Positions 2,981-44,626 of a DNA stretch of 64,000 nucleotides are shown here, piece by piece. The position numbers and the translations under genes are program-made. Each line of letters opens with the position of its first letter. Positions within the stretch are counted from its first letter, which is position 1. The stretch comes from Anseongella ginsenosidimutans (GTDB taxonomy: Bacteria; Bacteroidota; Bacteroidia; Sphingobacteriales; Sphingobacteriaceae), in the NCBI RefSeq assembly GCF_008033235.1, contig NZ_CP042432.1:4216001-4280000 (forward strand), read 5' to 3'. Below the pieces are notes generated by a model, which made no database searches, had not been told where the DNA came from, and saw nothing but the letters and a program-made list of their open reading frames with translations.

Positions 2981-3028
2981 GTAAAGGTTGGGCGGAATTG
3001 AGAGTTTGTTTGCCCGCCGCAGATTGCG

Positions 3029-3129
3029 GGATTTTGGCAGCCGCAATCGCTCAGGCTGATTTCGGGATCCCGGATGCTGCGCATCCACCCTCGAAAATCA
3101 AAGTTCGCTCTTTGCGGCTGCCAAAATCC
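3029..3129. repeat. Large imperfect palindrome 1
   Basis: Outer arms 3029-3046 and 3112-3129 are perfect 18 bp inverted repeats. An inner 6 bp stem GGATGC/GCATCC with a 3 nt loop sits at 3072-3086. Both stems share one centre at 3079, and a TGATTT / AAAATCA pair lies between them. The whole ~100 bp could fold as one interrupted hairpin in RNA or single-stranded DNA. No reading frame or T-run supports calling it a gene or a simple terminator. Confidence 0.8.
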
Positions 3130-3250
3130 TGCAAGGCCACACTCCGGGAACCTACGCTCCGGGAATGCGAGGCCAGAGTTACGGCCTGGCTGGCAAACTC
3201 CACCGGGCAACGCATCGGACGTCCTGGCGATCTCACCGGACCGAAGCCAT

Positions 3251-3414
3251 TAGTGCTGTGTTAAGCGTGAACTTGCAGCACCAAGCCTTGGTATTTTTGG
3301 CCCGGGCGGCTTTAAAAAAAATTTCCGTAGTCACCGCTACGCAGATTTTTTTCGCATTGCCCGGAACAAAAATACCTGCAACTTATGCGACAGTTCACGC
3401 TTAACACAACACTA
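3251..3414. repeat. Large palindromic element 2 with 23 bp terminal inverted repeats (MITE-like)
   Basis: Positions 3251-3273 and 3392-3414 are inverted repeats matching at 22 of 23 bases, beginning TAGTG and ending CACTA. Further inward, GTATTTTTG (3291-3299) pairs with CAAAAATAC (3367-3375), an A-run pairs with a T-run, and CGTAG/CTACG lies at the centre (3326-3341). The 164 bp therefore form one long imperfect hairpin. Short length, inverted ends and no coding capacity suit a MITE-like or REP-like element. I see no clear target-site duplication. Confidence 0.7.
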
Positions 3415-3451
3415 GCTGAAACTTTAAAAGCGGAAACCGGATTTTTTTTTG

Positions 3452-3773
3452 GAACTTTGAACCTTGAACTTAAAACCGTTGCGCAGCAACTTTGAACTTA
3501 AAACCGTTGCGCAGCAACTTTGAACTTGAAACTTTAAACTTTAAACCGTCGCGCAGCAACTTTGAACTTGAAACTTTAAACTTTAAACCGTTGCGCAGCA
3601 ACTTTGAACTTGAAACTTTAAACTTTAAACCGTTGCGCAGCAACTTTGAACTTGAAACTTTAAACTTTAAACCGTCGCGCAGCAACTTTGAACTTGAAAC
3701 TTTAAACTTTAAACCGTTGCGCAGCAACTTTGAACTTGAAACTTTAAACCGTTGCGAAGCAACTTAGAACTTA
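3452..3773. repeat. Heptad repeat array with eight in-register hairpins (42 bp higher-order unit)
   Basis: The stretch reads as 46 consecutive 7-mers without an indel. Most are variants of GAACTTT, GAACTTG or AAACTTT. Pairs of heptads form small palindromes of the type GTTGC-GCA-GCAAC, sometimes GTCGC, starting at 3478, 3506, 3548, 3590, 3632, 3674, 3716 and 3751. Their spacings are 28, 42, 42, 42, 42, 42 and 35 bp, all multiples of seven. The commonest higher-order unit is 42 bp (six heptads). Similar arrays occur at 25504-25643 and 44348-44618. Confidence 0.92.
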
Positions 3774-3783
3774 AAACAAAATA

Positions 3784-4602
3784 ATGGCTCATCATCTCTT
3801 AGAAGGAAAAAAAGGAATTATTTTCGGCGCGCTTGACGAAAAGTCAATTGCCTGGAAAACGGCTCAGAAATGCGTTGCGGAAGGCGCGGAAATTGTACTC
3901 ACCAATGCACCCATTGCCCTGCGTATGGGCGCCATTAATCAACTGGCGGAAGAATGCAATGCCCCCGTGATCCCTGCGGACGTTACCAGCCCGGAGGACA
4001 TTCAAAATCTGTTCGATAAAAGCCTGGAACATTTCGGCGGAAAATTTGATTTCATTCTTCATTCTATTGGCATGAGCCTGAATGTGCGAAAGGGCAAACA
4101 TTATACCGAAGCCAATTATGACTTTATGCACAAGACCCTGGATATCTCAGCCATTTCGCTGCACAGGGTATTGCAGGCCGCCCTGCAAAAAGATGCCCTC
4201 AACGAATGGGGTTCAGTAGTTGCCCTGAGTTATATCGCGGCCCAGCGTGTATTCCCGGATTACAACGAAATGGCGGACGCCAAGTCCTTGCTTGAATCCA
4301 TTGCCAGGAGCTTCGGCTACCACTTAGGCAAACAGAAAAAAGTAAGGGTGAACACGATTTCGCAGTCACCCACTATTACTACCGCGGGCTCCGGGATCAA
4401 GGGCTTCGACGGCTTTTACAATTATGCGGATAAGATGTCGCCGCTTGGAAATGCCAGTTCAGACGAGTGTGCCGATTACTGCGTGACACTTTTCTCAGAT
4501 TATACCCGCATGGTGACCATGCAGAATCTTTTCCATGACGGAGGGTTCTCTTTCACCGGAATGAATGAAGAAATCATACGCTCTTTAAGTAACGGCGAAT
4601 AA
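3784..4602 (+). CDS. fabI: Enoyl-[acyl-carrier-protein] reductase (NADH) FabI
   Basis: This 272-residue short-chain dehydrogenase performs the last reduction of each fatty-acid elongation cycle (enoyl-ACP to acyl-ACP). The N-terminal nucleotide site follows the FabI pattern GKKGIIFGALDEKSIAWKTA, differing from the classic SDR glycine motif. Catalytic Tyr and Lys appear as Y-x6-K in YNEMADAK (about residues 160-167), with HSIGM near residue 96. Its start codon lies only 10 bp downstream of the heptad array, so the array forms its leader or promoter region. No clear TAnnTTTG box lies upstream. Confidence 0.94.
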   Translation: MAHHLLEGKKGIIFGALDEKSIAWKTAQKCVAEGAEIVLTNAPIALRMGAINQLAEECNAPVIPADVTSPEDIQNLFDKSLEHFGGKFDFILHSIGMSLNVRKGKHYTEANYDFMHKTLDISAISLHRVLQAALQKDALNEWGSVVALSYIAAQRVFPDYNEMADAKSLLESIARSFGYHLGKQKKVRVNTISQSPTITTAGSGIKGFDGFYNYADKMSPLGNASSDECADYCVTLFSDYTRMVTMQNLFHDGGFSFTGMNEEIIRSLSNGE

Positions 4603-25503: not shown

Positions 25504-25643
25504 TAACCTTGAACTTGGAACCTTGAACTTGGAACTTTAAACCTTAAACTTGGAACTTTGAATTTGGAACTTTGAACCTTGAACTTTAAACTTTAAACCT
25601 TGAACCTTGAACTTTAAACTTCGAACCGTTGCGAAGCAACCCG
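25504..25643. repeat. Heptad repeat array between glmS and the DUF4954 gene
   Basis: Twenty consecutive 7-mers without an indel, mostly GAACTTT, GAACCTT, GAACTTG, AAACTTT and AAACCTT. It ends in the hairpin GTTGC-GAA-GCAAC (25628-25640), directly against the glmS stop codon (25644). It is the same family as 3452-3773, in the same plus-strand orientation although the flanking genes run on the minus strand. Confidence 0.9.
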
Positions 25644-27482
25644 CTATTCAACAGTTACCGATTTAGCCAGGTTCCGCGGCTGATCCACATTATAGCCCTT
25701 CATGGTCCCAATATGGTAAGAGAGCAGCTGGAGTGGGATCACGGATACCATGGGCATCAGTAATTCATCGGTTTCAGGAACCTCAATGACGTCGTCGGCC
25801 ATTTGAGGGATCACGTCATCCCCTTCGCTGACGACAGCGATCACTTTTCCGCCGCGGGCCTTGATCTCCTGGATATTGGAGACGATCTTTTCATAGGAGC
25901 TGTCCCTGGTGGCTATAAAAACCGAAGGCAGATTTTCGTCCACGAGGGCAATATGACCGTGTTTCATTTCGGCCGCCGGGTAACCTTCGGCATGAATATA
26001 GGAGATCTCCTTCAGCTTTAGGGCTCCCTCAAGGGCAACGGGGAAACCATACCTTCTTCCCAGGAACAGGAAGCTATGAGCATCCTTATATTTCCCGGCT
26101 ATTTTGCGGATATGTTCATCCATATCGAGCGCTTGCTTCACTTTCTCCGGGATGCGGTACAGTTCGGCGAGTAATTCCCGGAAGCGCTTATCGTCTATCG
26201 TGCCTCTTTCATGGGCCGACTTCAGGGCGATCAGGGTCAGCACCGTCAGCTGAGCGGTAAAGGCCTTGGTGCTGGCCACACCTATCTCCGGCCCGGCATG
26301 GGTATAAACCCCTTCATGCGAAGCCCGGGGGATGGAAGATCCTACCACGTTGCAAATGCCGAAAATAATGGCGCCCTTTTCTTTCGCACCTTCAATGGCT
26401 ACCAGGGTGTCGGCCGTTTCACCGCTTTGAGATACGGCGAAGATCACATCTCCTTCCCGGATAACCGGGTTGCGGTAACGGAATTCGGAAGCATATTCAA
26501 CTTCCACGGGAACCCTGCACAATTCTTCAAATACATATTCGGCAACCAGCCCTGCATGCCAGGAGGTGCCGCAGGCTACAAATACGATGCGGTCGGTATT
26601 ATTCAGGTTGGCCGCGTATTCCCGGATGCCGCCCAGCGTGATCCTGCCCGCCTCCACATCCAGCCGGCCCCGCAGGCAGTCGCGGATGGTATTGGGCTGT
26701 TCGTGGATCTCCTTGATCATGAAGTGGTCATAGCCTCCTTTTTCAATGGCTTCCAATTCCACGTCAAGGGTATGAATATAAGGAGTTTGCTCTTCGTTTG
26801 TCAGGTTTTTAAGCACCAGTTCATCCTTGCGGATAATCGCGATCTCATGATCGTTCACGTAAATGACTTTCTTGGTATATTCCACGATGGGAGTCGCGTC
26901 CGAAGCCAGGAAATGCTCGTCCCTCCCCACACCAATAACCAGGGGGCTTCCCTTTCGCGCAGCGATGAGCGTGCCGGGATCATCCTTTGAGGCGATCACT
27001 ATTACATAGGCGCCAACTACCCGCTTTAGTGCTATGCGGACCGCTTCTTCCAGGGAACACTGATTGCTTTTCCTGATCTCTTCGATAAAATGCCCCAGCA
27101 CTTCCGTATCTGTTTCGCTTTCAAAGGAGTGCCCCTTACTTATAAGTTCTTTTTTCAGCGAAGCGTAGTTCTCGATAATTCCGTTGTGGATGATCGCCAG
27201 CCGGCCATCTCCCGAAGTATGCGGGTGCGCGTTCGCATCGGTGGGAGCGCCGTGTGTGGCCCAGCGGGTATGCCCGATCCCGATTTTGCCTTCCTTCGAT
27301 TTCCCTTCGGTATGCGCTTCCAGGTCGCTTACCTTTCCTTTTTTTCGGTAAACCCGCAAGTCATTGCCGTCCAGCAAGGCAACACCGGCGCTGTCGTACC
27401 CCCTGTATTCCAGTCGCTTTAATCCTTTAATAAGAATGGGATAGGCATCCCTGTCCCCAATATAGGCTACGATTCCACACAT
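25644..27482 (-). CDS. glmS: Glutamine-fructose-6-phosphate aminotransferase (isomerizing) GlmS
   Basis: The 612 residues match the family. The N-terminal Ntn glutaminase starts at the catalytic Cys2 (MCGIVAYIG), with GIGHTRWATHGAPTDANAHPH. Two SIS isomerase domains follow (FVACGTSWHAG and SQSGETADT, then FLFLGRRYGFPVALEGALKLKE). It ends in the conserved QPRNLAKSVTVE. It makes glucosamine-6-phosphate, the entry step to UDP-GlcNAc for peptidoglycan and lipid A. I see no glmS ribozyme in the short leader. It lies downstream of the dnaK terminator. Confidence 0.96.
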   Translation of the reverse strand: MCGIVAYIGDRDAYPILIKGLKRLEYRGYDSAGVALLDGNDLRVYRKKGKVSDLEAHTEGKSKEGKIGIGHTRWATHGAPTDANAHPHTSGDGRLAIIHNGIIENYASLKKELISKGHSFESETDTEVLGHFIEEIRKSNQCSLEEAVRIALKRVVGAYVIVIASKDDPGTLIAARKGSPLVIGVGRDEHFLASDATPIVEYTKKVIYVNDHEIAIIRKDELVLKNLTNEEQTPYIHTLDVELEAIEKGGYDHFMIKEIHEQPNTIRDCLRGRLDVEAGRITLGGIREYAANLNNTDRIVFVACGTSWHAGLVAEYVFEELCRVPVEVEYASEFRYRNPVIREGDVIFAVSQSGETADTLVAIEGAKEKGAIIFGICNVVGSSIPRASHEGVYTHAGPEIGVASTKAFTAQLTVLTLIALKSAHERGTIDDKRFRELLAELYRIPEKVKQALDMDEHIRKIAGKYKDAHSFLFLGRRYGFPVALEGALKLKEISYIHAEGYPAAEMKHGHIALVDENLPSVFIATRDSSYEKIVSNIQEIKARGGKVIAVVSEGDDVIPQMADDVIEVPETDELLMPMVSVIPLQLLSYHIGTMKGYNVDQPRNLAKSVTVE

Positions 27483-44320: not shown

Positions 44321-44626
44321 GTTATTTAGTTTAGCATCGATCCCGGAGCGCGCGAAGCGCGCAGTTTAAAGTTTGAAGTTTAAGGTTTAAAGTTTCCAAG
44401 TTCAGGCTTTCAAATTCCAAACCTGGGCTTTGAACCTCTTTCTTCTCTTTTTTACTTTCTTCCGGGACTTACCAATTAATTTACTCTTTTTCGTTTCCAG
44501 CCTGATCAGGCTCTTCCAGTTCCGGCTCTCCGGCAAAGGTTTCCATGAAAACCTTGAACTTTAAACCTTGAACCGTTGCAAAGCAACCTTGAACTTTGAA
44601 CTTTGAACCTTAAACTATTAAGGTCG
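44321..44626. other. 306 bp gap splitting the S10 operon between rpsJ and rplC
   Basis: The gap holds an inverted pair of heptad tracts (44363-44400 on the minus orientation, 44549-44618 on the plus orientation) around ~150 bp of non-repetitive sequence. No gene or clear promoter box is visible inside. The rpsJ stop codon itself lies in an 8 bp hairpin (44618-44637). Confidence 0.8.
44348..44618. repeat. Composite heptad element with inverted arms and terminal hairpins
   Basis: The left arm begins with hairpin GCGCGC-GAA-GCGCGC (44348-44362) followed by heptads TTTAAAG, TTTGAAG, TTTAAGG, TTTAAAG, the reverse complement of the family unit. The right arm (44549-44618) is ten heptads of GAACTTT/AAACCTT type including hairpin GTTGC-AAA-GCAAC (44575-44587). 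The arms could base-pair imperfectly across the intervening sequence. Confidence 0.85.

Follow-up and report, generated by a model that had tools for sequence, protein, structure and literature searches.

Heptad array upstream of fabI

In the 64,000-nucleotide window of the Anseongella ginsenosidimutans chromosome analysed here, fabI is preceded by a run of seven-base units, which raises the question of whether this run arose by copying in 7-bp steps and whether it serves the gene as a leader. The preliminary description had read it as 46 consecutive heptads without indel, stopping 10 bp before the fabI start codon, and both points were borne out (322 bp at positions 3452-3773, with fabI starting at 3784; Table 1). 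Thirty-eight of the gap-free units started with AAC and the other eight were GCGCAGC or GCGAAGC, the whole set including, among others, AACTTTA, AACTTTG, AACTTGA, AACCGTT and GCGCAGC. The self-identity of the array at lag 7 was 0.51, compared to 0.27±0.02 in shuffled sequences (n = 2000, maximum 0.35), and as it exceeded every one of the shuffles, chance was excluded.

Table 1. Coordinates of fabI, heptad arrays, hairpins and associated features, numbered from the first base of the window. TRF, Tandem Repeats Finder.
Feature	Position	Strand	Description
recN-fabI spacer	2981-3783		803 bp (in G007, of the same genus, 16 bp)
fabI-proximal heptad array	3452 to about 3773-3776	+	38 AACnnnn units and 8 GCGNAGC units, 0 indels
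Hairpin 1	3478-3490	+	GTTGC-GCA-GCAAC
Higher-order 42-bp tandem block	3488-3749	+	6.2 copies, 97% matches, 0% indels (TRF)
Hairpin 2	3506-3518	+	GTTGC-GCA-GCAAC
Hairpin 3	3548-3560	+	GTCGC-GCA-GCAAC, imperfect
Hairpin 4	3590-3602	+	GTTGC-GCA-GCAAC
Hairpin 5	3632-3644	+	GTTGC-GCA-GCAAC
Hairpin 6	3674-3686	+	GTCGC-GCA-GCAAC, imperfect
Hairpin 7	3716-3728	+	GTTGC-GCA-GCAAC
Hairpin 8	3751-3763	+	GTTGC-GAA-GCAAC
fabI (enoyl-ACP reductase)	3784-4602	+	downstream neighbour of the array
Second heptad array	25505-25640	+	one GTTGC-GAA-GCAAC hairpin; adjoins glmS (25644-27482, - strand)
Left heptad array, rpsJ-rplC spacer of the S10 operon	44360-44394	-	GTT on the + strand
Right (AAC) heptad arrays, rpsJ-rplC spacer	44550-44619	+	hairpin at 44575

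An AACCGTT or AACCGTC heptad stands before each GCGNAGC unit, and the two, together with the AAC of the following heptad, form a GTYGC-nnn-GCAAC unit. The eight GTTGC-nnn-GCAAC hairpins proposed earlier were all located at the exact starts given and in a single phase, but only six of them are perfect, the GTCGC arms at 3548 and 3674 having lost one stem pair and giving no fold in the DNA model. By their sequence, the GCGNAGC units would correspond to the extraordinarily stable DNA mini-hairpin d(GCGNAGC), with a GNA triloop and two closing G-C pairs; GCGAAGC has a melting temperature near 78 °C, and the class of GNA loops is a general one (PMC4686876). A folded structure spanning the entire array was rejected, as the whole strand folded no better than its shuffles (z = 0.88), and so was a known RNA family, the only matches being to eukaryotic microRNA models below threshold.

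The gaps between the hairpins (28, 42, 42, 42, 42, 42 and 35 bp) are multiples of seven, as had been claimed, but they do not amount to seven independent observations. The five full 42-bp blocks of the array are identical or differ by one base, so that the five 42-bp gaps derive from one block copied repeatedly and are not independent evidence of a register. The strict hairpin spacing before fabI is mostly due to this recent copying of a single 42-bp block. For the same reason, the argument that the lack of indels at this locus in itself implies a special mechanism was not supported: a copied block keeps the phase of its source, and out-of-register steps do occur in other arrays of the genome.

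Genome-wide distribution of heptad arrays and hairpins

Pattern searches detected AACnnnn arrays at many places across the genome, which is a single contig of 4.32 Mb. A survey of 81 stretches totalling 1.66 Mb, some of them picked for their arrays so that densities are not genome estimates, contained 46 segments self-similar at lag 7, all of them intergenic (46/46), and no segment at lags 4, 5, 6, 8 or 10 under the same similarity threshold. Lags 14 and 21 are harmonics of 7, and segments at lag 18 were mostly coding. These counts support the earlier proposal that copying in 7-bp steps exists, and the possibility, also raised there, that arrays occur only at this locus by chance did not withstand the genome scan. 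The fabI array is one of many intergenic 7-bp arrays in this genome and belongs to a known kind of bacterial tandem repeat.

The commonest trimers spaced by seven bases were, by a wide margin, AAC and GTT, its complement (67 runs each, compared to 30 for the next). Within the AAC units, bases 4 to 7 were variable: position 4 was mostly T or C, position 5 T or A, and position 7 A or G. Most arrays lie away from fabI, many are on the non-coding strand of the neighbouring genes, and many lack any hairpin.

The hairpin pattern GTTGC-N3-GCAAC was present in 93 copies in the genome, against one copy of a backward control pattern. Among the sampled hairpins, 50 of 53 were near an array, and 38 of these 50 were in phase with it. 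The loop read on the AAC strand of these 50 was GAA in 34, GCA in eight and AAA in four, with two in reverse orientation; as a GNA loop was thus on the AAC strand in 42 cases compared to two reversed ones, the hairpin unit is oriented. Spacings between hairpins less than 200 bp apart, among the places listed (n = 31), were multiples of seven in 15 cases and were offset by +1 in nine, -1 in four and +2 in three. The gaps between successive AAC runs in other arrays were also often out of the 7-bp register. The claim of a strict register is therefore broken at other arrays of the same genome, and such a register is local to the fabI array.

Comparison with related genomes

The sole same-genus genome compared (G007), whose FabI is 91% identical, was nearly empty at all three array-bearing spacers of the window (Table 1 for recN-fabI). 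The aligned flanks were 8 bp apart in G007 and about 180 bp apart here at the glmS site, and 19 bp compared to about 280 bp at the rpsJ-rplC site. A fourth site was not clean, a larger block being missing there in G007. The G007 recN-fabI spacer reads TAG-AACTTAATTTTGAAAA-ATG, while the spacer here ends in TAGAACTTAAAACAAAATA-ATG, and the ten bases TAGAACTTAA are at the same distance from the fabI start in both genomes. The last heptad could be ancestral and the array could have grown from it, but this alignment is suggestive only, the G007 TAG being the recN stop codon. At the rpsJ-rplC site, 15 nt of the spacer found in G007 (CCGGGACTTACCAAT, near 44462) are kept between the left and right arrays, indicating that the spacer took at least two insertions.

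FabI is about 80% identical to that of Sphingobacteriaceae and Parapedobacter relatives, and a long array before fabI was found in none of the about 100 other genomes examined (GTDB relatives and whole-genome loci). As arrays are absent at this position in the wider relatives, they were probably gained here rather than lost in G007. Separately, in the region upstream of fabI, several Mucilaginibacter and relatives (L065-L144) have two to four heptads, of the AACTGTA-AACTGCA-AACTAAT or the TCTAAAA-TCGTAAA type, directly in front of a box resembling TATAACTTTG.

Other repeats were observed in the same spacers. The recN-fabI spacer contains a 164-bp palindromic, MITE-like element (3251-3414) with 23-bp inverted ends (TAGTGCTGTGTTAAGCGTGAACT), of which the genome has one near-full copy (90%) at G000:C1:315245-315411 and several partial ones at other places. 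It also contains a second palindromic repeat (3024-3134) with 23-bp arms that are 96% complementary, and whose relatives are found near G000:C1:2721200 and at other places. At 44348-44476, the insertion on the left side of the rpsJ-rplC spacer interrupts the loop of an inverted repeat (CCCGG/CCGGG) of the G007 spacer and starts with GCGCGC-GAA-GCGCGC, another GNA hairpin.

Position and polarity of arrays between genes

The distribution of the arrays relative to gene ends was then considered in sampled spacers, using a simple ORF-based gene model on which the polarity counts rest. In spacers with arrays on both strands (n = 25), the minus arrays were wholly to the left of the plus arrays in 23, mixed in two and reversed in none. 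Their median relative position within the spacer was 0.71 for plus arrays and 0.28 for minus arrays, with peaks near the matching edge; the AAC heptads on either side thus read outward to the gene that flanks them, whichever of its ends is adjacent. In other genomes of the family, all five two-sided spacers agreed with this rule, and 18 of 22 one-sided runs were in the expected half, the halves being counted by eye. The two arms within one spacer were no more alike than arms taken from different spacers (P = 0.79), and an origin of both arms from one inverted duplication was rejected on that ground.

Arrays were present in only two of 192 divergent spacers compared to 46 of 570 other spacers (P = 1e-4), and in 13 of 146 convergent spacers. 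A similar arrangement has been described for the GGGAATC arrays of Xanthomonas, which occur as convergent pairs near the neighbouring ORF and seldom between divergent genes (Rehm et al., PMC4692102).

Origin and possible function of the arrays

The best-supported account, which we regard as probable, is that the intergenic heptad arrays expanded in 7-bp steps through slippage or unequal recombination and are carried because the spacers tolerate them. Each step would add 7 bp, or, in the recent history of the fabI array, one 42-bp block. The slipped strand would re-anneal through the three-base AAC core, leaving the remaining four bases to drift, and the GCGNAGC mini-hairpin may favour slippage and thus drive the 42-bp copying at fabI. 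As mismatch repair handles loops no longer than about 4 nt, steps of 7 nt may escape it; smaller slips, which leave the register, would be corrected and the period thereby kept. In Escherichia coli, MutS acts on loops of up to four nt, and MutS-alpha of Schizosaccharomyces pombe leaves 7-nt loops unrepaired (PMC5427490). Differences between Cyanothece siblings are mostly indels in 7-nt increments (PMC4679880). Such an escape does not explain the absence of 5, 6 and 8 bp periods, and the out-of-register steps present in many arrays count against slippage. That the arrays are neutral is suggested by their avoidance of two-promoter spacers, their presence between convergent genes and their absence in relatives.

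A regulatory role appears unlikely for the arrays in general. They would then be leaders in which an RNA- or DNA-binding protein, bound to AAC every 7 nt or to the hairpins ahead of start codons, sets the translation or transcription of fabI and other genes. In favour of this, the fabI array has AAC on the coding strand and stops close to the ATG; the polarity rule also directs AAC to the start of the second gene in tandem pairs, and most of the BOGUAY TAACTGA repeats are just upstream of start codons, regulation having been proposed in Beggiatoaceae (MacGregor, PMC4679880). However, arrays are rarest where two starts diverge and do occur between convergent genes, which is the opposite of leader function, and the array beside glmS lies on the non-coding strand. 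A promoter inside the fabI array was rejected, as the Bacteroidota -7 box TAnnTTTG is absent from it. A conserved fabI leader was rejected as well, the long array being missing in the relatives examined, although short AAC heptads are present before fabI in some Mucilaginibacter. With a 16-bp spacer in G007 and most arrays located elsewhere, the reading of the array as the fabI leader was not upheld.

Directional synthesis, in which GTT-strand heptads are added at 3' ends, as intergenic breaks or stalled forks are repaired, by a polymerase or a telomerase-like enzyme stepping 7 nt, seems quite improbable. Growth from 5' to 3' away from the gene edge would place GTT arrays on the left and AAC arrays on the right of a spacer, as found in the two-sided spacers of this genome and of the others, with the positions peaking near the matching edge. 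The convergent GGGAATC pairs close to ORFs in Xanthomonas and the dissimilarity of arms within a spacer also agree with it. On the other hand, one break filled from both ends was rejected at rpsJ-rplC, as the ancestral CCGGGACTTACCAAT remains between the arms, and no candidate enzyme was identified. Ku-dependent end joining was rejected too, Ku not being associated with arrays (34 of 48 array-bearing genomes compared to 73 of 103 array-free ones; P = 1).

It is highly improbable that the GTTGC hairpins are RAYT/REP-like mobile palindromes spread by a Y1 transposase, with the heptads as debris. The hairpin is dispersed and mostly intergenic, its arrays are scarce between divergent genes, and Y1_Tnp was present in 32 of 48 array-bearing compared to 45 of 103 other family genomes (P = 0.009, uncorrected for kinship). 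Nevertheless, this origin is largely refuted here, as the genome has no Y1_Tnp (PF01797) match, four array-rich genomes (G062, G065, G084 and G103) likewise lack it, and many arrays are without a hairpin. Finally, an assembly artefact or low-complexity sequence arisen by chance, for which nothing speaks but the repetitive nature of the array, is scarcely credible given the shuffling result and the recurrence of arrays at many loci here and across many independent genomes.

Relation to known heptanucleotide repeats

AACnnnn x 9 arrays were detected in 48 of 151 family genomes and in 94 of the 395 phylum genomes; their variable bases differ by species. In the G065 spacers (L298-L317), mosaics of other heptads were observed, such as runs of GCTTTCA and GGCTTTC, AAC not being the sole core in the family.

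Among the closest known repeats are the TAACTGA repeats of Beggiatoaceae, Cyanobacteria and some Bacteroidetes (MacGregor 2015, PMC4679880), which are also intergenic head-to-tail heptamers with an AAC core, form long arrays in Bacteroidetes, and differ between siblings by indels in 7-nt increments. Two related genomes (G138 and G190) contain AACTGAT arrays, AACTGAT being TAACTGA in another register. No exact TAACTGA direct repeats were found in the fabI array, which has in common with them the AAC core and the period only. The arrays described here differ in that four of the seven bases vary within an array and GCGNAGC hairpin units are present. Moreover, they occupy both sides of spacers, occur between convergent genes and beside stop codons, and are not mainly located before starts.

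The (GGGANTN)n and GGGGA(T/C)T repeats of Xanthomonas and Nostoc (Rehm et al. 2015, PMC4692102) are likewise degenerate intergenic heptads with a fixed core, and the Xanthomonas GGGANTN heptads share with the present arrays the scarcity between divergent genes and the convergent opposite-strand pairs. They are G-rich and quadruplex-forming, whereas the AAC/GTT units lack G-tracts and are accompanied by hairpin units. The short tandemly repeated repetitive (STRR) heptanucleotides of Calothrix and other cyanobacteria, as cited in PMC4692102, comprise several tandem heptanucleotide families with a different consensus. According to Mrazek et al. 2007, as reported in PMC4679880 and PMC4692102, heptanucleotides outnumber the other classes in most genomes where long simple sequence repeats (LSSRs) with long units (5-11 bp) are plentiful, and slippage linked to a 7-nt polymerase contact has been proposed. 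Compared to the LSSRs as presented there, the arrays here show strong degeneracy, three of the seven bases being fixed and the other four variable. As in repeats of the LSSR and STRR kind, the 7-bp head-to-tail unit is over-represented relative to other periods, intergenic and dispersed over the chromosome.

A directional process adding 7-nt units at 3' ends that point away from gene edges, with a three-base anchor and four free bases, and with the same polarity from Bacteroidota to Xanthomonas, would be a wider reading of these patterns, and one that we hold to be very unlikely. The arrays offer a clean case for heptanucleotide repeats, combining a single period, a fixed core with a variable remainder, and empty sites in G007, one of which is inside the S10 operon. 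Their outward polarity, seen in other genomes too, is a testable clue, and plain slippage does not predict it.
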